Shown here piece by piece: positions 11,027-35,859 of a DNA stretch of 64,000 nt. This DNA comes from Hydra vulgaris (lineage: Eukaryota; Cnidaria; Hydrozoa; Anthoathecata; Hydridae): positions 38,574,001 to 38,638,000 of the forward strand of contig NC_088924.1 of the NCBI RefSeq assembly GCF_038396675.1, in the 5' to 3' direction. A program made the translations under genes and the position numbers. Below the pieces are notes generated by a model. The model had not been told where the DNA came from. It saw nothing but the letters and a program-made list of their open reading frames with translations, and did not search any database. Within the stretch, counting starts at the first letter, position 1, and each line of letters opens with the position of its first letter.

Positions 11027-14000
11027 GTGTGTGTGCATTGTTTATAAATACTACAATACTACTTTAATGATTGGGTTCTATGTGTAAAAACTGAACAGTA
11101 TCTTTTAATGATAATAAATCAGCTTCATTCACTTTTTTATGTGTATGATAGTGCTTTTTATTGCATGAGAATTTTGTTTGTTGTAAATAGGTATCAAACT
11201 TAATTTATTGTACTTAAATATTTGTGTAGTATTTGAATTGAATGCAAAAAATTTTTAAAAAGCTTGGTATTTTTAAAACATGTCTCTATCTTTGTTTTGG
11301 CTAAACTTTATTTTTATGTAGTGTCCCATACAGAAAATTTTCATGGAAAATCTATGAAAGAACCCATGGATTTCCCATGGGTATTTAGAACACTTGAAAA
11401 CCATGAGTTTTCCATGGAAAGTCCGTTAGGTTTCCATAGAAAGGTGTTCCAAATACCCATGGAAATTCCATCAGTTTTCCATGGTAAAATAGCACGTTTT
11501 GTTTTCAAGTTTTTTGAAATCTAATGTTATTTCAATTGTCATTTAAACCATAAAACGCAAATTTTATCACACAACTCGCTAATATTTTTGAGTTCTTTTA
11601 ATCTATGTGATCGCTTTTGCGGAATAAAATCAATAAACAAAATAAAACTTCAATCTTGTTGAATCCTACAAATCTTTGAAAAATAATAGCTATAATGCAT
11701 CTAAACATTGAAATTTGACTTTAACACAATATTTAATACATACTTATGTGCATACTGAAAATAAATAAAACAAAAGACTAAAAGTAATACCATACTTTAA
11801 GTAATATACATACAGTGATAAACAAGTGAAATATATTATGAAAACAATTTTTACTGAAAATATAACAATTTACATATTTATTATTTTATATAAACTATAT
11901 GATAAAAATAGTATATTTAAATTTGAAAATTAATAACTTCAAGCTTCAATAAATTTAAAAGAATCATCAATACAACATATTCAACTCAAAAAAATATTTA
12001 GGCCATTTGTATATGCGATTGCAGTGCCAACTGTAGCAGAAACCATTTTGTCATTGAACATGAGCATTGCAGAACCAGGTAATTGTCAAACAAATTACCA
12101 TTCACATTTTGATATTCATTATTGTTTTCACCACAGTTAGTATCATTGTCTGTTTCACCAATCTAGACAATACATCATAAAATTAATATATACATACTAA
12201 GTAATTTTCTTTATTTACTAAATTATTTATACTATTAATCATTATCTATTATAATTAACTTTATAATTATGTATCACAACTTTTTAAATGTTCTATATAA
12301 ATGTTGCCAAATGTTGGGTAACATTTATATAGAAAAAAGGAGTAACAGATTTATCAATATTTGCCCAAGCTATCTGCATGGTGTACTACATCATTTATAT
12401 TTCCAGTCAAGCCTTTCTGCTTATAATGTAGTAATCTGATTAATATAAGTTAAAATAAAAAGATTTATGAACGAACTAATACATATATAAATGTTACCTG
12501 TATGTTAGTAACATTTATATAGAACAAGGCAGCAAAAAATATATTATTACTTATAAATGGTAATTAAAAAAAACTTGCTTCTTCATTTGAACTATCTGAA
12601 AGACAGGTCCCAAAAAGACTCTGGCTTTATATCTATATTTGTTCCTAATCTCTGGTTTCCAGAAGCTCTGAAAATGTTGGTTGACTTATGATCTGCTATA
12701 TAAAAAAACTCGTGAAATTTAACAACTTGAAACTAATTGTTTTTAAGCCTGGAGTCCTAGAGTCCTCGCCACCATTATACTTAAGGATTTCGGGTTCAAA
12801 AAGTGACTTATTCACACACTATTAAATTAAAAAATTTATTATATTTTTACTTAACTATTTAAAACATAATAAATATTATAAATATTTATTAAGTATAGTA
12901 ATGTAAAAATATGATAAATATAAAAGTGTGTGCATAAATTAATTTATTTTTACTTTAGACGAGCACTTCACATTGGTTAAATATAAACAATTAAAAGTAA
13001 TTATATTATAATAAATATTATATATAAATATTATTTTATTATATATTATGTATTTTTTTTTTTTAAATTCACCTCCCCAAGGCCGAGGAGGCCACTACAG
13101 TCGAGGAGGCTACTTTTTTGTGGTTACAACCCTCTCTCAACTCCAAGACACGAACCTTGACGAACAAGGCCGCTGCGCGGAGAAACAAGTTGAGCACGGT
13201 ACTACAAGGGACGTGGTGGGGATTGAACTCGGAACTTCTCGCTTATGAGGTGAGCGCTCTACCACTACACCACTACCGCATTATTGATAATACTGTATTA
13301 TTGATAAACATTACTTTTGTATGCTTACATTTAACTGTGAAGTTATATCTTGCGCATTAATTATTTTTCTGATATTTTTAAAACATTACCATAGTTTTTC
13401 TTCTCCAATAAGTTGTTCTTGGAACATCATTACAATAAGTTGTTCTTGGAACATCATTACAATAAGTTGTTCTTGGAACATCATTACAATAAGTTGTTCT
13501 TGGAACATCATTACAATAAGTTGTTCTCGGAACATCATTACAATAAGTTGTTCTTGGAACATCATTACAATAAGTTGTTCTTGGAACATCATTACAATAA
13601 GTTGTTCTTGGAACATCATTACAATAAGTTGTTCTTGGAACATCATTACAATAAGTTGTTCTTGGAACATCATTACAATAAGTTGTTCTTGGAACATCAT
13701 TACAATAAGTTGTTCTTGGAACATCATTACAATAAGTTGTTCTTGGAACATAATTACAAGTTAAATCCCAAATATAAGGCTTATATCTTTTCTGGTTAAT
13801 TTGAACTCAATTCACTATTTTAATTAGACAGCTTTTGAACTGTTTAAAAAAAAATTATATGCATATAAAATCCGACTATGTTATAAATAATATATATGAT
13901 AAACAACATTGTTTATATTGCCAGTCAAACCTGTCAGCTTATAATGTAGTAATTTAAATAAAATATTAAAGTATAATTAATTTAATTATTCATAAACTTT

Positions 14001-17000
14001 TACATTATTTACATATTCTAATAGTTCTGCTATTTACTAGTAAAGAAAAAACATAATAAATACCCCTACTAGATCTGGTCACTAACTAAATCCCTACTAG
14101 AATGGTCGCATCAACAAAAAGGCAAATTGTTTTAAAACCTAATGAACATTTACCATACAATAAAGTGTTTTAACTTCAAACATCTTTATGTTAACAAAGC
14201 GAAAAAAATTAAAAAAGATAGTACTAGTTATTTTGTGTACATTATCAAATCCAATACACTGTTTATTTATATTTTGCGTACATTAGTTATCAAATCTTAT
14301 CCGATACACTGTTTATCTATATTTTGTGTACATTAGTTATCAAATCCAATACACTGTTTATCTATATTTTGCGTACATTAGTTATCAAATCTTATCCGAT
14401 ACACTGTTTATCTATATTTTGTGTACATTAGTTATCAAATCCAATACACTGTTTATCTATATTTTGCGTACATTAGTTATCAAATCTTATCCGATACACT
14501 GTTTATCTATATTTTGTGTACATTAGTTATCAAATCCAATACACTGTTTATCTATATTTTGTGTACATTAGTTATCTTATCCAATACACTGTTTATCTAT
14601 ATTTTGTGTATATTAGTTATCAAATCCAATACACTGTTTATCTATATTTTGTGTACATTAGTTATCAAATCCAATACACTGTTTATCTATATTTTGCGTA
14701 CATTAGTTATCAAATCCAATACACTGTTTATCTATATTTTGTGTACATTAGTTATCAAATCCAATACACTGTTTATCTATATTTTGCGTACATTAGTTAT
14801 CAAATCTTATCCGATACACTGTTTATCTATATTTTGTGTACATTAGTTATCAAATCCAATACACTGTTTATCTATATTTTGCGTACATTAGTTATCAAAT
14901 CTTATCCGATACACTGTTTATCTATATTTTGTGTACATTAGTTATCAAATCCAATACACTGTTTATCTATATTTTGTGTACATTAGTTATCTTATCCAAT
15001 ACACTGTTTATCTATATTTTGTGTATATTAGTTATCAAATCCAATACACTGTTTATCTATATTTTGTGTACATTAGTTATCAAATCCAATACACTGTTTA
15101 TCTATATTTTGCGTACATTAGTTATCAAATCCAATACACTGTTTATCTATATTTTGTGTACATTAGTTATCAAATCCAATACACTGTTTATCTATATTTT
15201 GCGTACATTAGTTATCAAATCCAATACACTGTTTATCTATATTTTGTGTACATTAGTTATCAAATCCAATACACTGTTTATCTATATTTTGCGTACATTA
15301 GTTATCAAATCTTATCCGATACATTGTTTATCTATATTTTGTGTACATTAGTTATCAAATCTTATCCGATACACTGTTTATCTAAGCTTATCTAATTACC
15401 GGTTACACAAGGCAACAAAATTTTATTTTGTACTTTTTTTTTGCATACATTATGTTATAAAGATATTAAGGTTCAAATCCCTATTTTGCCAATAAATTTT
15501 AAATAAAAATTTTTATGTTTTTTAAAATCTTTGTAAAAAAAAATGCTTTTTTTGAGACCCAGGTTGACATACTTTTGAAGAAGTTTTTTTGTGTGACAGT
15601 ATTAATGATTTTACACCAAATATTAGAGATTTAAACCCTAATATCTTTAAAACTTGTTGTGATAGGAAAAAAAAAAGGCTGCATATTTAAAACTAGAATG
15701 AGGAGTACTATAAGAAAAACATGGTATGCAAAAAAAAAAGTACAAATGTAAAATATTGTTATCTAATATACATTAAAACTAAAATAATTGTAGTAAATAA
15801 ACATTAAAAATCAAACTGATTCACTTGACATACTTGCTATACTGTTGCAAGTTATGCAAAGTAAGCAAAGCTATTGGCAATAGTTAGAATATGCATTTTA
15901 TAATGCATCATAATATGATAATATTAGACCAAGACTAAGACCAAGACATTATGACTCAATACCAAGACTAAGACCAAGACTTTAAGCTTTAAGACCAAGA
16001 CAGTTAAGTATGAGTCTCGAGACATTTCGGGACCAAAATTTAAGTCTTGAGACCTGCATCTCTGATAATATCATATTATGATGCATTATAAAATGCATAC
16101 ATTTATCATATTCTAGCTATTGCAAGAATGTCTAGTTGTTTATGTCTGTATATTTAGTTTGAATCATTAAATGTGATGCATTATAAAAAACATAATTTAT
16201 ATAATCTTATTAATTACAGAAAAACAGAAGTATGCAAGAAATATTATTTAATCAAGATACAAATGATTATAACTTACAAGATGCTACATGAGCTATGAAA
16301 AAAAACCATGATTCACCCATGGGAATTCCATGGGGTTTCAATTTCCATGGGAATTCCCCTATTTTCAATTTCCATGGAAATTCCCCTATTTTCAATTTCC
16401 ATGGAAATTCCCCTATTTTCAATTTCCATGGAAATTTCCCTATTTTCAATTTCCATGGAAATTCCCCTATTTTCAATTTCCATGGAAATTCCCCTATTTT
16501 CAATTTCCATGGAAATTCCCCTATTTTCAATTTCCATGGAAATTCCCCTATTTTCAATTTCCATGGAAATTCCCCTATTTTCAATTTCCATGGAAATTCC
16601 CCTATTTTCAATTTCCATGGAAATTCCCCTATTTTCAATTTCCATGGGAAAACTATAATTTACTCAGAATTCCATGGGATTTCCATGGAATTCTATGGAA
16701 TACCCATGGAATATTTCAGTAAGAGGTGTTCTTTTATTTTAGATACAATTAATTTTAGTTTTATGTACTAAGACCTTTTGCGTAGTCTAAAAATATGTAA
16801 AAAAACTAGTAAGCAGTAAAATTTTTATATTAAATAAAAAAAACCTTTATGTTACAGTAAAGTCATAAACTAATAATAAGTTATTTTATCAAATATCAGG
16901 ATTTAAACTGGTTTTATCAAACATCAAGATTTAAACTGATAATTTTAAACTTCTAGTAAATTGTAACAATATTTTTAAAATTGTAGTAGGTTGTATTAAA

Positions 17001-21539: not shown

Positions 21540-21650
21540 TTATATTTTTCAATCAAAGTTACAAAGTTATATTTTTTCAATCAAAGTTACAAAGTACACT
21601 TAAGTTTTCATATTTTTTAATCAAAGTTACAAAGTAAACATAAGTTCTCA
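21540..21650. repeat. Short tandem repeat 3' of the beta-trefoil gene
   Basis: Four copies of 'tcaatcaaagttacaaagt' spaced 25-45 bp, in the expected 3'-UTR or downstream region of the minus-strand gene that ends at 21648. Confidence 0.6.
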
Positions 21651-23616
21651 ACTTATTTCATTTAGGCCATCGTCTTCAGTAACGCTGTCGTCTATAACGA
21701 TTAGTTTAAAGCTGGCATTCTTTCTGTATAGCTCATCCTCAATGTCTTCTTCTTGTAATTTCAATACGCAAACTTCATGTCGAATAAAGTATCCAGAATA
21801 TTTAGTTGATTCAAATGAAACGCAACCTGGATAGTATCTATCTTGGTGGACTATAAATGATCCAGCATTTCTAAACGACACGGTATTTTCTAATTTGTCT
21901 AGTTTAATGAGAAAAGATTGATTTCTCAAGTAGCTATTTGTACTATCGCTCAAACTCAGGGATGCAGCGCAAAATCGTCCATTGAGAGCTAAAGAAAAAA
22001 AATATTTGCTATTGTTTAAATAACATTGTTTATATTTCACATATACAATAAAACTACTGGTTTAAAAATTTGACCTACTTACACTTTGTAAAAGTAAACA
22101 TAACTTGGTCACCAGTAACAATAGCAGTTGTGTTGTCAGGCTTAACGCTAATACTATATTGTGGATAGTTATAGGAACCCAATTGGTAAGATAAGCCAAT
22201 GTATCTCGCACCTGGAAAGAGTAGTTATATCAGAATAGTTTTTGTAGTACAACATATATTGCAGATAAAAATAATTCAAATTACCGGTTCAAGATTTTAC
22301 TATTTTTTCTTACCGTGTGGTACTAGCCTAAAGCTTGCGCTTTTTTGGAACGCACTTAAACTGACTTCTTTTTGAACCGAAAGAGATCCATCATTTTGAG
22401 TTGCAATGAAGAAACCTGAGTTTCTCGTTGATTCAAATGATGCGTAGCCAGGAAAGTATTTCTTTTCACGAATAAAAAATGATGCTCCATTTTTTATTTG
22501 AGCTGTATTGACAAAACTAACCATTCTTAAGATAGAGTTCTGTTCACATAAGTACATGCTCTCATTTGCAACCAATTGAAAAGATACACTGTTAACCTGG
22601 CCATTTAAACCTAAAAAATATTTTAACTTCAACATTATGCGGGAGAAAACTTTAGTTGAGATGGTTAAAAAAAACACCTTTTTTACTTAGTTAATTAATG
22701 ATGAGACTATCTGTGAGAGAATATTGCCAGGGCCGTCCTGAGGGGGGAGAAGGGTGGTGTTTAGCCCCCCGACGAATTTTATTAGTCGGACACTTTAAAT
22801 TATTAAATTGGACTCTAGAGTCGGCAAAACTAGAACTATAGTTGGCAGTCAGCAAATCTCGGCCAACGAGGACCTATTTTTTATTAAGGTAAGTTAGTCG
22901 GCGAAAATATTTCTTGGGGCTTTAGTCGGGAAAAAACAGATACGATTTACCCCAATTAAAATCTCTTCGGGACGGCCCTGAATATTGCATTACAATTTTT
23001 GTCATTAAAAAAATGTTTATCTGTACTTGGCACTCACAGTTTATATTTGAATGCAATTATAAGTTTATATTGTATTTAAATTTTCATTGTCAAGTACAAC
23101 TTTCAAATTGTAATTTTTTAATACAAATTTCATAAAATGAAAAAAAAATTAATAAATGTTTTTTAAAATATGTATATGCCTAAAAGAAAGTTTATACGAT
23201 ATAAATATTTTTCTTAAGTGATACGATGAAAACTGCTTAAGCTAATTCTTAGAATAATGATACCTCTTATAAAATATCTGATAACAGAAAGAAAACAACA
23301 ATGTAAGTTAATAAAAAAATACAAACAATTAAAAAAAAATGTTTACGTTTTTATCAAAACAACTTTTAACTAAAAAGATAAAAATATATAAAAGTAAAGA
23401 ATTATTAATTTTGATTTAACGATTTGGAATAATTCATCGATAGAAACTTTAGGAAAATAGAATAGAAATAATTGTAAGAAAGGAAAAAATAAAATTAATG
23501 TAGAAAGAAACAAAATAATTTTTTTTTCATATTTACAGTGCCAAAAAATGACAATGAAAATAGAACAGTAGTTGTCTTAAGCGCAGATGTTAAAAACTAC
23601 GACATTTTCAAACAAT

Positions 23617-23683
<67 letters not shown>

Positions 23684-26257
23684 AACAATAATGACCCAAA
23701 CAATGTCAGATATGATATGATAAATATTATTACTATGCACTGATTCATACTTTTGTCGTAGTTGTTGTTGTTGTAGTTGTTGTTGTTGTTGTTGTTATTA
23801 GTATTTAATATTAGTTCAACAACAATTATTGTTATTAATATTATTATTGTAACTATTATAATTTATCAACATTATTATTGTATTATGGTTAATATTACTA
23901 TTATTGCTTTTTATGAGTTTTATCTCACCTTTCACAATAGTGAATTCATCCACACCCATATAAATTAAGGATAAAGTTAAGTCCTTGTTTACACCAATTC
24001 GATATTGAATAGCGTTATAAGATTCAAATGAAAAGGAATATCCAATTTTATTTGTTCCTAAAATGTACCAAAGCAATTTATATATACAAAAAATTTCAGT
24101 TGATCTGAAGTAATGACAAATATTCAATATAAGCCAAAGCAGTTTTTATAACCAAAAAATTTTAGTTGATCTGAAATAATGACAAATATTCAATATAAGC
24201 CAAAGCAAAAATATAAGACATATATTACCACATTGTAATGGTTGGAAGCTAGCATCCATTATGTAAGATTCCAAGTTCATTTCTGATTGCAACACCAAAT
24301 TAAAATTTTGTTGTCGTAGAAAATAATTAGGATAATTAGTTGACTCGAAGGCAACGTAATCTTTAAAATACTGATTTTCGCGAACAAAAAACGACGCATC
24401 ATTTTTAAAAGAACTAGTGCTCTCGTATTGATGAAGCTTTAAAGTAAAACTTTGATGACGTAAATACTTGTTGCTGTCTTTAGCCGACTGAAAAGATACA
24501 GTCCCGTTTTGTCCGTTCAAACCTTTAAAGCAAATAGTTAGTAACAAATGATTCAAACAAAATAAAATAAATTAAAGTTTTGCAAAAAAAAAAAATTTAA
24601 AGATTTGAAAAATGAAAAAACATTATTTTGCAAACAACATACCTTTTGTAATTACATATTCATCAGCACTCATATATTTAATTCCTACAAGCACTCCGTC
24701 ATCTTTGACACCAATGCGATAGTCTTGATAAGTGTAGGAAGAAAATGTGTATGTGTTTCCAATGTATATCAAATCTTAAAAAATAATTTTAAATCGGTTT
24801 TTAAGGTTTTTCTTTTCAAAATTATTTTTTTTATTTTAAAATAAAACAAAATGCCTATTGATCAAATTCTAAACAATAAATTGGGAAAAGTCTTCCAAAA
24901 AAAATCCAAATAAATTTCTTTTTCAAAAGATTTTTTTTTTTTTTTTTTTGTGTGTTTTTCTTTTCCAAAAGCTGTTCTCGTTCTAAAAAAAACTGCTTAT
25001 GACTCTTCTAACATGAAAAAATTAGTTTGATGCAATGAGGTTGTGTTTTTAATCCGTATTAATTATTAAATCCAGTTTAATATATAACTTTCATTTATAT
25101 AAATATTGTAAAAAGTTTACCGCTAGGTGTAAGTTTAAAGCTAGTTTCTCGTCGGTAGAAATCCATGTCGGCTTTTTCTTCGTTCAAGACTAAAACTGGG
25201 TTCTGGTATCGTAGGTAACGACCACGGTAACATGCGGATTCGATGGAAACATAGTCGGGAAAATATTTTCTTTCTCGTATAAAAAAAGAAGATTCGTTTC
25301 TAAACAAAGCTGAGTCTTCAAACTGATAAGTCTTGACGTCATTATTTTGATGACGGATATAGATGTTGGAATTTTTCTTACTTTGAAAGGATACTGTGTT
25401 AATCATTCCATTCAAGCCTGAAAAAATGTTTTTAATCTACTTAAAAATTGAAAAATTGAACATTGAATGCTCATTCAGGTGTTTCTTTGAAATTTTGAGG
25501 GTAGTTCTTTGAAATTTTGAGGGTAGTTCTTTGAAATTTTGAGGGTAGCTTCTTTAAAATTTTAGAGAGTGCTACTTTAGATTTAAACAAAATTATTTGG
25601 AACTGTCATAAAACATTTGTTTAAATGCCATACAATTTTGTGAGTTAACTCATATAATAAAAATTAAAAAATACTTTTTAAAAACGTAAAAAGTTTAATT
25701 TGAAAAAATTACTGAAAAAAAGTCATATTTTTAATACCATATCATATAAGATTTAGCTTTCAGCGCTATTGGAATTTGAACTTAATGTATATTTGTAGTT
25801 TTTGCTTATATATCAACAGTTTTTAAAATTCAAAAAGTTGTTCCAAATCAAGAATTGATTTGGAACAACTTTTTGAATTTTAGAAACTGGGTTTGGATTA
25901 TAATCTTTTTTTAATTCAATTTAAAAAAGGCGTTAGATAATAAATTAAAAGGGTGTTAAATGGATGGTGTCGTATAAGCTTACCTTGTACTATTTTAAAC
26001 TCTGTTTCGTCCATAGAAGCGTCATCGGGGTTGACATTATTTTTAACGCAAAGACTTTGTTGTGGTGTATGAAAAGGCTCAAACGAGTAGTTTTCTTCCT
26101 TATTCCAGCCGGCTAATAGAAATAAGTTGTGTTAATGAAGAATAAATAGTTAAAAAGAAAAACCATAAATAAGTCTTAGATTTATTAAAAGTAATAAAAA
26201 GGTTTTACCTTCACAATATGCAATAAAAAAACTAATTAAAATGGCTAATAGAGTCAT
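21648..26257 (-). CDS. Secreted four-module AbfB-type beta-trefoil protein, PPOD-like (complete, 9 exons, 598 aa)
   Basis: Exons on the minus strand: 26209-26257, 25984-26112, 25121-25417, 24643-24774, 24229-24522, 23929-24057, 22314-22610, 22083-22211, 21648-21988. All donors are GT and acceptors AG, every intron is phase 1, and the total is 1797 nt. The start MTLLAILISFFIAYCEG is a short signal peptide. Exons then alternate between about 43 residues (one trefoil repeat, e.g. YSFESYNxxQYRIGV) and about 99 residues (two repeats, e.g. GLNGxxxxVSFQS...LRHQ, then ASFFIRExxYFPGYVSFEST), four times, so each exon pair gives a three-repeat trefoil. The FxSxNYPxYxLRHQ and ASFFIRE signatures are those of the AbfB arabinose-binding beta-trefoil (Pfam AbfB). 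Hydra PPOD cuticle proteins carry such domains and are thought to derive from bacteria (published family knowledge); membership is inferred. A secreted carbohydrate-binding, surface role is likely. No catalytic domain is present. Confidence 0.85.
22728..22980. mobile_element. 253-bp hAT-type MITE in an intron of the beta-trefoil gene
   Basis: The termini CAGGGCCGTCCTGA and TTCGGGACGGCCCTG are inverted, flanked by a perfect 8-bp direct repeat AATATTGC (22720-22727 and 22981-22988). An 8-bp duplication plus CAGGGCCG ends is typical of non-autonomous hAT elements. No coding content. It lies between exons 6 and 7. Confidence 0.85.
23614..23682. repeat. (TA)n microsatellite
   Basis: TA tract in the intron between exons 6 and 7 of the beta-trefoil gene, followed at 23758-23900 by TTG/TAT triplet-rich sequence. 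Confidence 0.95.
24066..24215. repeat. Tandem duplication (about 66 bp, 2.2 copies) in an intron
   Basis: The block from ccaaagcaatttatatatac to caatattcaatataag is repeated head-to-tail with a few differences, between exons 5 and 6 of the beta-trefoil gene. Confidence 0.7.
25825..25881. repeat. Perfect hairpin, 27-nt arms, 3-nt loop
   Basis: Left arm 25825-25851, loop gaa, right arm 25855-25881; the arms are exact reverse complements. It lies in the intron between exons 2 and 3 of the beta-trefoil gene. Confidence 0.95.
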
Positions 26258-27352: not shown

Positions 27353-27816
27353 ATCTCTCCGTAAAAGTTGCGATTAATAACATCTCTCCGTAAAAGTTGC
27401 GATTGATAACATCTCTCCGTAAAAGTTGCGAATAATAACATCTCTCCGTAAAAGTTGCGATTAATAACATCTCTCCATAAAAGTTGCGATTTATAACATC
27501 TCTCCATAAAAGTTGCGATTAATAACATCTCTCCATAAAAGTTGCGATTAATAACATCTCTCCATAAAAGTTGCGATTAATAACATCTCTCCATAAAAGT
27601 TGCGATTAATAACATCTCTCCATAAAAGTTGCGATTAATAACATCTCTCCGTAAAAGTTGCGATTAATAACATCTCTCCATAAAAGTTGCGATTAATAAC
27701 ATCTCTCCATAAAAGTTGCGATTAATAACATCTCTCCATAAAAGTTGCGATTAATAACATCTCTCCATAAAAGTTACGATTAATAACATCTCTCCATAAA
27801 AGTTGCGATTAATAAC
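27353..27816. repeat. 29-bp minisatellite, 16 copies
   Basis: Unit atctctccataaaagttgcg + attaataac (variant ccgtaaaag). Exactly 16 units fill 464 bp. The array resumes after the LINE at 28515. Confidence 0.95.
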
Positions 27817-28513
27817 AATAACGATTAATAGCGTGAACACGCTAAGCCCTTAATGAAAGATATGAAAATGATGAATGTGTTTGAAATAAATATCTACCAG
27901 CATTTAATTTTCATGTACCGTTATAATCACAATATCTCTCCTATAAGCTTTAATAACAAGTTTAAAATAAATAAAAATGATAGCTATAATCTTAGAGCGA
28001 ATATGTCCAACACATATAAACTGCCTCGGATAATAAACAAATATTCAGAGTACAGCATTCTATATCGAGGTCCAAAAGTATGGAATACTTTTCAAAAAGG
28101 ATTCAAAGGTACGGTAAATTCGTTAAGTTCATTCAAGTTTTTAACAAAAAAAGAAATTTTTAAAATATAAGAAACGTTTTTGGTTATTGATACTTTGAAT
28201 AATTTCTCATAAATCTGTTTTTGTTTTTTATTTCTACTTTTGTTGGTTGCTTATCAATTTTATTAACGAATTACGCGTTTTATTACGATATTTTATTGAA
28301 ATCTTATTACGCATATTGTAACATATTACGATATTTTTTTGAAATCTTGTTATAGGGGCTCTATGAAAAGATTGTGATAACGTACTGTCATCCTCATCTT
28401 CTTTGAGCCCCTATCTGTTTTACTTATTTTATTTATTGAAATTTTATATTACGAAGTTGTAAAATCTTATATTATATTAAAACAGAGAAAGAAAAAAAAA
28501 AAAAAAAAAAAAA
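27817..28513 (+). mobile_element. 5'-truncated LINE inserted within the 29-bp minisatellite
   Basis: It holds the last ~105 codons of a reverse-transcriptase ORF (ends 28170) with a C-terminus of the form NVFEINIYQHLIFMYRYNHN ... YSILYRGPKVWNTF, typical of CR1/L2-like non-LTR elements. It continues with a ~315-bp 3' UTR and a terminal poly-A of about 25 nt (28488-28513). The 3' UTR contains a perfect 10-bp stem ATAGGGGCTC / GAGCCCCTAT (28352-28361 and 28404-28413), a plausible template-recognition hairpin. The minisatellite units on both sides show the target was the array itself; repeat context hides the target duplication. Confidence 0.8.
27853..28170 (+). pseudogene. LINE ORF2 C-terminal fragment
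   Basis: An open frame of 105 codons without upstream RT motifs. It is open only because the truncation left the very end of the ORF; the WNxF and SSFKFLTKK end fits the family pattern. Confidence 0.7.
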
Positions 28514-28514
28514 C

Positions 28515-28624
28515 ATCTCTCCATAAAAGTTGCGATTAATAACATCTCTCCGTAAAAGTTGCGATTAATAACATCTCTCCATAAAAGTTGCGATTAATAA
28601 CATCTCTCCATAAAAGTTGCGATT
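28515..28624. repeat. 29-bp minisatellite, distal part, 3.8 copies
   Basis: Same unit and orientation as 27353-27816, cut off by the LINE's poly-A. Confidence 0.95.
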
Positions 28625-32079: not shown

Positions 32080-33412
32080 AATAATGATATGAAAAGTGTT
32101 TAATCTGCTGCACAATATAAGTAAAACCAATAAATGATGTATATTACTTTTCTTTTGTCAGTTCCATTTTTTAGGCATAATAAATAGTTTAGTAATTAAA
32201 AGAAATAATAAATATATTTTAATATTTCTTTATTTTGATCTTTAGAATTAATATTTTACTTTGTATTATTTTTATCTTAAATCATAAAGTTTTAAATTTA
32301 GCATAAATTTTAATTGATTATTAATCAACTCAATTTTTGTTAATTGAAATAATTTTATTCTTTCTATTGATGGTTTATTAATATTTTTTTATAAGCTTAA
32401 GTATTTTATTAATTTCTATATGTATATTAATAAGTTTAAGATCGATAAAATATTTAAAAAAAAAGATTAAATATATTATTATTTATATCAGTTATTTTAT
32501 TAATCGGAGTATTTTCTATTTTGGGATATTTTATGATTTTATATTTTATTTAAAAGTATATTAATACTTGTATTTATTATGATTAGTATATGAGGGTATC
32601 AAGAAGAAAAAATAAAAGCTGCTTTCTTTTTTTTTTTTTTTATACCCTAATAGGATCTTTATTAATGTTGATAAGTATTTTTAAAATATATTCATTAACT
32701 GGAACTACTAATTACGAAAATTTAATCATTATAAAAATCCCATATAATATTAAGTTTTGATTATTTATAGGATTTTATTATAGGTTTGGCACCATACCCC
32801 CTACAATAAGAATACTTCAAACCATACCCCCTATGAAAATAGGGGGTATGGTTTAATTAGATTTTGCCATCCAATCTTCCCATTAGCCTCTCAATTTTAT
32901 AATCCATTAATTATTATAATGAGTATTATAGCTATAGTTTATGGTGCTTTAACCACATGTTGCCAAATAGATTTAAAACGTTTAATTGCTTATTCTTCAG
33001 TTTCTCATATGGGTTTAGTAACTACAGGTATTTTTTCACATTCTATCGAAGGACTAATTGGATCAATACTAATGATGATTGCTCATGGTTTATACTGTTC
33101 AGGTTTATTTATTAAAACTTCAATTGTATATTTTAGATTTCATTCTAGAATTATAAAATACTTTAGAGGTTTAATAATTACTATGCCTATTTTAAGCATA
33201 ATTACGTTTATCTTAATTTTAGCTAATATTTCATTTCCTGTAACATTAAATTTTAGCTATTAATTAAATTTTATTATTGAATTATTTTTAATAATTTCAA
33301 CTTTTAAACTTTCTCTATTTATAATCTTATTAGCTTTATTAGAAGTTTTCATAAGTCTAATTTACTCTTTATGAGTTCATAATAGAATGTTTTTTCTAGT
33401 TCATCCCATTTA
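32080..33412 (+). pseudogene. nad4: nad4 copy, interrupted by a hairpin insertion and truncated (NUMT)
   Basis: ND4 landmarks in order: IDGLLIFFISLSILLISI (about 32370), WGYQEEKIKAAFFFFFFYTL (about 32600), KFWLFIGFYY (about 32755), then an insertion at about 32785-32857, then RFCHPIFPLASQFYNPLIII and the open piece 32919-33263 with QIDLKRLIAYSSVSHMGLVT. The tail LLALLEVFISLIYSLWVHNR stops at about 33410, short of the usual ND4 end. The open piece is only a surviving fragment of ND4, not a separate gene. Confidence 0.85.
32785..32857. repeat. Hairpin insertion inside nad4 (16-nt arms, 4-nt loop, plus a direct partial copy)
   Basis: Left arm 32820-32835 and right arm 32840-32855 are exact reverse complements (aaaccataccccctat). 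A further direct copy of ccataccccct sits at 32793-32803. It replaces the part of nad4 that normally encodes the conserved 'KIPMIPFHIWLPEAHVEAP' region. Confidence 0.85.
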
Positions 33413-33417
33413 AAATT

Positions 33418-34373
33418 TTCGAGAGATTTTTTGCTATGCATGTTGAGATACAATTTTAGCTTTTAAATCTTAAACTTTTGTTCATTTATGTAGAGAGGTA
33501 AATTATGGATTTTAATTAAAATCAATTCATGCTAATAGAGCTTCTTTTTTTTTAATTTGCGTTTATATTCATATAGGCAAAAGTTTGTATTATGGGGGTT
33601 ATCAAAAAAATACCATTTGATAAATAGGTATAACTATATTTATAGTGATGGTGATTACTGCTTTTATATGTTATGTATTACCTTGAGGACAAATGCCTTT
33701 TTGAGGGCCACTGTTATTACAAATTTCTTATCTGAAATTCTTATCATTCTTTATAATAGGAGATGAAGTAGTTCAATTAATTTGATTTGGTGTATTTGAT
33801 ACTTTAGATAGATTTTTTAGTTTGCATTATTTATTTCCATTTGTATTAATTCATAATGTTAGATCTAGTAATCCTTTAGGAATTAATAGTAATTTTGATT
33901 TCCATTTCATTTATATTTTGTCAACATATTAATGGATTTTTTATATTAATATTTATTCTATTATTTATAGTATTTTTTTACACTAATACTTTAGGTGATC
34001 CAGAAAACTTTATAAACACTAATTCATTAGTAACTCCTGTTAACATAATGCCAGAGACTTTTTATTTGCTTATGCTATATTAAGATCAATTCCTAATAAA
34101 TTAGGAGGAGTTTTAGCTTTAATTTTAAGTATAATAATCTTATTCGTTATCCCGTTTTTACACACCAATAAATTTTTTTCATTAACTTTTTGACCTATAG
34201 GAAAATTATTATATTGAGTGTTTATAGCTAATTTTATTTTATTAACTTGATTAGGTTCTAAACCTATAGAAATCCCTTATATATTAATCAGTATAATTTC
34301 TAGTTTGTTATATTTTATTTTATTTTTATTTATTATACCATTAAAAGGAAAATTAGAAAATTATTTTTTTTAA
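33418..34373 (+). pseudogene. cob: cob (cytochrome b) copy, 5' deleted and frameshifted (NUMT)
   Basis: It begins abruptly at a FFAMHVEIQF-like segment (normal FLAMHYSANIELAF), so about 30-60 N-terminal residues including the start are lost. Then [83 protein letters not shown], and [20 protein letters not shown] follow in changing frames. It ends KGKLENYFF, stop 34371-34373. These are the conserved heme-binding and Qo-site regions of cytochrome b. Confidence 0.88.
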
Positions 34374-34778
34374 AAATAAGTATATATCACACTTATGAAT
34401 TATTGAATCACACATTGAATGTTTTCTACTAGTCACAAAGATATAGAAATTTCATATATAATTTTAAGGGCATTTTCTGGAATCATAAGGACTGCTTTAA
34501 GTATGTTAATTAGAATGGAACTTTCAGCACCAGGAAGAGTAATATGAGATGATCATTCATATAATGTCATAGTAACAGCTCATGCTTTTGTAATGATATT
34601 TTTTTTAGTTATGTCAGTTTTAATAGGAGGTTATGGAAATTGATTTGTACCTTTATACATAGGAGCACCAGATATGGCCTTTCCTAGACAAAATTATTTA
34701 AGTTTTTGATTACTTCCTTCTGCATTAGTTTTACTTTTAACTTCATCTCTAGTAGATCAAGGATCAGGAACAGGTTGA

Positions 34779-34925
<147 letters not shown>

Positions 34926-35107
34926 TAAACATTTGATAAACTTCCTTTATTTGTATAATCTGTATTAATAACAGCATTTTTATTACTTCTTTCTCTTCCT
35001 GTATTGTCAGGAGCAATTACTATGTTTTAACTGATAGAAATTTTAATACTACTTTTTTTGACCCACCTGGAGGAGGTGATCCTGTTTTATACCAATATTT
35101 ATTTTGA

Positions 35108-35421: not shown

Positions 35422-35859
<438 letters not shown>

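Follow-up and report, generated by a model that had tools for sequence, protein, structure and literature searches.

What kind of protein is encoded by a Hydra vulgaris gene that is built from four repeated pairs of exons, and how did the gene come by its repeats and its introns? The gene lies within a stretch of 64,000 nucleotides (NC_088924.1, positions 38,574,001 to 38,638,000 of the forward strand; hereafter the window, whose own numbering is used below), which belongs to contig 5 in a genome of 911.5 Mb and 15 contigs (C numbers denote contigs and L numbers loci). We favor, with moderate confidence, the view that it encodes a secreted protein of four AbfB modules that serves as a component of the basal-disc glue in a structural or lectin-like, non-enzymatic capacity, and that it arose through the copying of exon pairs.

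The gene runs along the minus strand from 26257 to 21648, where nine exons join without gaps or stops into an open reading frame of 1797 bases (599 codons including the TGA; 598 amino acids). Its introns all have GT...AG ends (8/8) and all fall in phase 1 (8/8). An exon of 16 residues carrying the signal peptide is followed by four exon pairs, each of which consists of a one-lobe exon and then a two-lobe exon (43 and 99 residues, 44 and 98, 43 and 99, and finally 43 residues and 114 codons with the stop; Table 1). An earlier note on this DNA had proposed a nine-exon model of 599 codons with all introns in phase 1, and our analysis reproduces it exactly, numbers included; the division of each module into one plus two lobes and the phase-1 symmetry are likewise borne out by the exon joins of the four pairs. 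The model is thus exact, and the identity of the domain can be stated just as plainly. Against the whole protein, the Pfam family AbfB (PF05270) scores 190 bits (E 2.5e-56), and modules 1 to 4 individually reach 63.0, 76.9, 29.6 and 52.7 bits, all above the Pfam cut-off of 22.8 bits, so that the AbfB assignment of the earlier note is upheld by a search with the assembled protein. The second Pfam match of the whole protein, IL1, lies below its cut-off. Each module has the three lobes of the AbfB (CBM42) family, with solved chains aligning mainly over lobes 2-3. When module 2 was compared with the PDB, nine sequences appeared at E up to 0.001, namely arabinofuranosidase or GH43 entries and RsgI5, and the whole protein gave weaker matches, at E 0.12 to 0.55, to interleukin-33, interleukin-18 and two tropomyosin fusions. 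Judging from these profile matches, the product would be a secreted protein of 598 residues that folds into four CBM42-type beta-trefoil modules behind its signal peptide and carries no enzyme.

To which known protein might it correspond? Rodrigues et al. (2016; PMC5080974) report, in the part of their paper available to us, a basal-disc transcript, HYRNA1402_5493, which is annotated as AbfB, encodes 588 amino acids, has a log2 enrichment of 4.80, and is one of 21 basal-disc transcripts with a mass-spectrometry match in the secretion. According to the same source, it is 100% identical over 588 amino acids to the H. vulgaris protein XP_002159690.1 (LOC100202073), which has 598. Given the equal length and the AbfB family, the window gene is most likely LOC100202073, and hence most likely a known but uncharacterized glue component. 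Its expression in the basal disc, at which the earlier note had hinted, gains support from this published transcript by way of length and family; combined with the literature, the same match makes expression there and presence in the secretion the most likely state of affairs.

The published text (Rodrigues et al., 2016; PMC5080974) goes further and proposes, in its results and discussion, that the basal-disc AbfB protein is a de-adhesive glycosyl hydrolase, a glycosidase helping the foot to detach, and the glycosyl hydrolase label has been repeated by two later papers that cite it. However, PF05270 is a binding module (CBM42) and not a catalytic one, and no catalytic family appears among the Pfam matches of the window protein at E up to 1. 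The modules occupy residues 17 to about 580 and leave no space for the catalytic domain that a GH54 or GH43 arabinofuranosidase would possess. Because the protein consists of binding modules only, hydrolysis is unlikely, and on this domain content we reject the glycosidase, which we regard as highly improbable. A search of the whole genome for the GH54 catalytic family (PF09206) was negative as well, although this search was weak, the control genomes being silent too.

If the protein binds rather than cleaves, does it bind arabinose? Within the CBM42 of AtAbf43C, the available text of the structural study describes His, Tyr and Asp residues of the second and third lobes that hold arabinose (H70/Y73/D89 and H118/N120/Y121/D136; PMC12493170). 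Among the eight lobe-2 and lobe-3 sites of the window protein, His and Asp occur together in one, and the sole pocket with His, an aromatic residue and Asp is that of lobe 2 in exon 5 (module 2). By comparison, both residues are present in 15/20 lobe-2 and 15/20 lobe-3 sites of 20 distinct paralog exons, and in all sites (12/12) of the two-module paralogs L014, L016 and L017. For this count, four fragmentary or truncated pieces (L015, two of L018, and L069) were excluded from 28 distinct exon pieces, which do not include copies that fall short of the profile start. Twenty-nine bacterial rows have His in 27 (lobe 2) and 28 (lobe 3), and Asp in 29 and 14. Measured by the His and Asp pocket, the window protein thus departs from the family at all but one of its eight sites, a yardstick to be read with the lobe-3 Asp of only 14/29 bacteria in mind. 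By profile and by descent it is a member of the AbfB family, but it is probably not a binder of arabinose.

Conceivably, the altered pockets have acquired a new specificity, such that they bind sugars of the glue or footprint and the four modules together cross-link glycans. A beta-trefoil module offers up to three sites for such a multivalent lectin, and the intact pockets of the two-module paralogs would be compatible with this idea. Yet His, Asp or both are gone from 7/8 sites of the window protein, and because the four modules share no common replacement, the pattern looks more like loss than like one new specificity. We therefore hold a retuned lectin to be rather unlikely. We envision instead a structural or lectin-like part of the glue with several modules, whose repeated trefoils would provide a scaffold and in which at most one canonical arabinose-type pocket remains and the partners are probably other glycans or proteins that engage the changed pockets. 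The protein might accordingly act as a scaffold or a cross-linker in the glue.

Several observations weigh against such a non-enzymatic glue protein of four copied modules. The equation with XP_002159690.1 takes length and family, not sequence, as its basis, which is strong but not proof, and the gene model comes from the genome sequence alone. Losing the arabinose-type pocket does not show that all sugar binding is lost, and some pocket residues have also disappeared from the paralogs L019-L024 and L026. The yardstick is itself imperfect: a strict triad, with the aromatic residue three positions after His, occurs in just 6/29 lobe-2 and 10/29 lobe-3 bacterial rows. As this triad and the lobe-3 Asp are poorly kept in bacteria, only His and Asp were counted, and the third-lobe yardstick is weak. 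Finally, a cluster on C14 at 2.67-2.70 Mb is possibly another gene of several modules, and the count of four may not be unique.

How might the gene have acquired its introns? A genome search with the AbfB profile found at least 53 places, with matches in 0/14 control genomes. Lobe profiles built from the window gene and its relatives were run at E 1e-3 on the window, on a tandem array on C13 and on 17 other loci. They yielded 57 lobe-2/3 matches, 48 of which reach the profile start and have an acceptor AG at the exact phase-1 spot in every case (48/48; 25/25 distinct), and 44 lobe-1 matches, 41 of which reach the profile end and have a donor GT there (41/41; 20/20 distinct). With a background of about 4.6% for each splice dinucleotide, this agreement is far beyond chance. 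The counts contain the window's own four modules and many identical array copies; matches short of the profile edge (9 lobe-2/3 and 3 lobe-1), which are broken or divergent copies, were left out (the C13 array accounts for 2 and 3 of them, L018 for 3, and L015, L027, L028 and L070 for one each). The module-internal intron is shared by every testable paralog exon and is therefore older than the four-fold gene. Hence, contrary to the expectation of the earlier note, this locus does not show how the domain gained introns. The same note had the domain multiplying by exon pairs, and here the repeated pairs with their phase-1 borders agree with it; because the pairs were copied, the eight introns cannot be counted as independent events. 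The gene would then have been made by duplicating exon pairs flanked by phase-1 introns, starting from a family whose single module was already split by an intron.

Which modules gave rise to the four? Those of the window are 30-39% identical among themselves and reach at most 54% identity with modules of the paralogs. Signal-like open frames with a phase-1 donor lie upstream of L014, L016 and L017 (a permissive scan that also gave other candidates). A further two-module AbfB copy, L018 at C1:60.15 Mb, is disrupted by stops and frame breaks; its relatives at C1:60.38 Mb and C1:60.47 Mb are some 230-320 kb away. One tree was calculated with 15 Hydra and 29 bacterial modules as its sole groups, the latter from 27 of 29 motif-picked loci (L040 and L042 were dropped for want of a full module). 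The Hydra modules form one side of a branch (100/99); window modules 2-4 group weakly (91/66) with module 1 outside. The modules from the two-module genes and from the array sort into a first-position group (80/73) and a second-position group (92/89). Both groups recur in a second tree with 8 bacterial rows (71/74 and 98/93), where the window's four stand apart from them (91/89) without forming a resolved clade. A derivation of the four from the paralogs' two-module unit, with modules 1 and 3 joining the first-position group and modules 2 and 4 the second-position group, is disfavored (p-AU 0.026 and 0.083), and a single separate origin is not rejected (p-AU 0.387). The four modules may thus have one separate origin, a reading of the trees that is provisional because the branches are long.

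The C13 array (C13:17853083-17878514; L009-L012 and L001-L008) takes repetition considerably further, with 28 consecutive AbfB modules, all on the minus strand and in the same exon pairs and phases. Five of its 56 exons lack an acceptor in the phase expected, and three lobe-1 exons are shortened, some of them by small indels. Seven two-module units, each 1683 bases long, match one another at every base of exons and introns alike; four further units carry 2 to 18 substitutions and as many as 19 inserted bases, and a twelfth, whose end was placed by the period, has 217 substitutions. This identity reflects either very recent copying or homogenization, or an assembly fault. The array may or may not be one gene: a good donor follows the second-position exon, yet the 427-base spacer holds a signal-like open frame. 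From a broader perspective, we tentatively entertain a history in which a microbial sugar-binding module was acquired, gained one intron per module and was copied, by exon pairs and on separate occasions, into forms of four, two and up to 28 modules, yielding a family of surface beta-trefoils independent of the PPOD proteins whose members now are enzyme-free blocks of a reversible underwater glue.

The PPODs, cuticle lectins of Hydra, enter here because the earlier note regarded them as carriers of the AbfB domain and extended the case for their horizontal transfer to the window gene, which would accordingly be a PPOD-type cuticle lectin stemming from the same event. Both are beta-trefoil proteins of Hydra, and the basal-disc secretion list, as far as it is available, contains members of both families (PMC5080974). 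In the accessible part of the PPOD study (PMC3531485), PPOD-type genes are reported only from Hydra, and AbfB is mentioned only as a fellow member of a Pfam clan. We located PPOD-like frames through a published 22-residue stretch; that of PPOD4 has a best genome match of 86%, and the strain may differ from the paper's (PMC3531485, available in part). Genome searches with the FRG1 profile (3 places on C9) and the Fascin profile (8 places on C2) did not reach the PPODs. All three PPOD-like frames examined match DUF7910 and Fascin, and two of them (C5:4.20 and 3.55 Mb) match FRG1; the frame at C5:4.20 Mb matches DUF7910 (1e-36), FRG1, Fascin and RicinB_lectin_2. None matches AbfB at E up to 1, and hhalign found no similarity (probability 0.5%) between AbfB modules and PPOD-like modules taken from L075 and the gene at C5:4.20 Mb. 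Conversely, Pfam assigns to the window protein AbfB and the sub-cut-off IL1, and none of DUF7910, FRG1 or Fascin. The genes at C5:4.20 and 3.55 Mb, moreover, hold both modules in one open frame, possibly behind a separate signal exon, and show conserved W and N-R positions. The claim that PPOD proteins carry AbfB is therefore not supported, and as the frames have neither an AbfB match nor profile similarity, the published transfer case is not valid for the window gene. We reject the PPODs as its family, and regard descent from their transfer event as highly improbable. Since the two families are separate, horizontal transfer becomes a question for each alone. Apart from the Hydra glue and PPOD papers, searches of the open-license literature for AbfB in other cnidarians or metazoans gave nothing. 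A single-module PPOD-like open frame of 133 amino acids (L075, C1:12137236) resembles the one-domain ancestor inferred for the PPODs.

Table 1. Exons and longest intron of the AbfB gene in window coordinates, and genome positions of its two-module paralogs
Feature	Position	Strand	Basis
Exon 1: start codon and signal peptide (MTLLAILISFFIAYCE), phase 1 donor	26209..26257	-	gene model
Exon 2: module 1, lobe 1, 43 aa	25984..26112	-	gene model, lobe-1 profile
Exon 3: module 1, lobes 2-3, 99 aa	25121..25417	-	gene model, Pfam
Exon 4: module 2, lobe 1, 44 aa	24643..24774	-	gene model, lobe-1 profile
Exon 5: module 2, lobes 2-3, 98 aa	24229..24522	-	gene model, Pfam, pocket rows
Exon 6: module 3, lobe 1, 43 aa	23929..24057	-	gene model, lobe-1 profile
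Intron 6 (between exons 6 and 7), longest intron, with small inverted-repeat element	22611..23928	-	gene model
Exon 7: module 3, lobes 2-3, 99 aa	22314..22610	-	gene model, Pfam
Exon 8: module 4, lobe 1, 43 aa	22083..22211	-	gene model, lobe-1 profile
Exon 9: module 4, lobes 2-3, acidic C-terminal tail, stop; 114 codons with stop	21648..21988	-	gene model, Pfam
Two-module paralog L014	C13:17.68 Mb		
Two-module paralog L016	C1:60.38 Mb		
Two-module paralog L017	C1:60.47 Mb		

Inside intron 6, a small element with 14-base inverted ends (CAGGGCCGTCCTGA) spans 22728-22980 and presumably resembles non-autonomous elements of the hAT type. Upstream, a minisatellite with a 29-base unit begins about 1.1 kb from the start codon (27353-27817 and 28512-28624, about 16 and 4 copies), and further minisatellites with units of 24-45 bases and 90-100% matches lie at 13406-13759, 14242-15361, 16336-16647 and 35448-35716. 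Mitochondrial-like fragments occupy 32590-34928, including a match to Pfam Proton_antipo_M (1.8e-26 at 32919-33263) and, by eye under code 4, pieces of cytochrome b and cox1; this segment is probably a nuclear copy of mitochondrial DNA. An Rfam scan of the whole window gave no matches.

A glue-protein candidate of a model animal thereby gains a gene structure, a domain layout and a corrected function, that of binding or scaffolding and not of hydrolysis, and the AbfB family allows the duplication of exon pairs to be traced, within one genome, over a range of two to 28 modules. With the CBM42 modules found in bacterial and fungal arabinofuranosidases (PDB 3akf, 3kmv, 9nxi and 1wd3), the modules of the window gene share the Pfam family, the three lobes and an alignment over lobes 2-3, whereas they come as four with no enzyme attached, have introns inside them and want His or Asp in 7/8 sites. 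Like the PPOD1-5 cuticle lectins (PMC3531485, as far as available), the predicted product is a secreted Hydra beta-trefoil protein with tandem modules; unlike it, the PPODs belong to other Pfam families without profile similarity and keep both modules in one open frame. The C13 array has the same exon pairs and phases on one strand throughout, but differs from the four-module gene in its 28 modules, its identical two-module units and some broken exon edges. The paralogs L014, L016 and L017 have the 1+2 exon pairs, phase-1 introns at the same spots and upstream candidates for a signal exon, although their modules number two and retain the pocket His and Asp; in L014 and L016 the modules share 31-54% identity with those of the window gene. 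The probable published counterpart, LOC100202073, or HYRNA1402_5493, agrees in AbfB annotation, in its 598 amino acids and in the kind of animal; the available text, which describes no gene structure for it, reads it as a glycosidase (PMC5080974), whereas the window protein consists of binding modules alone.

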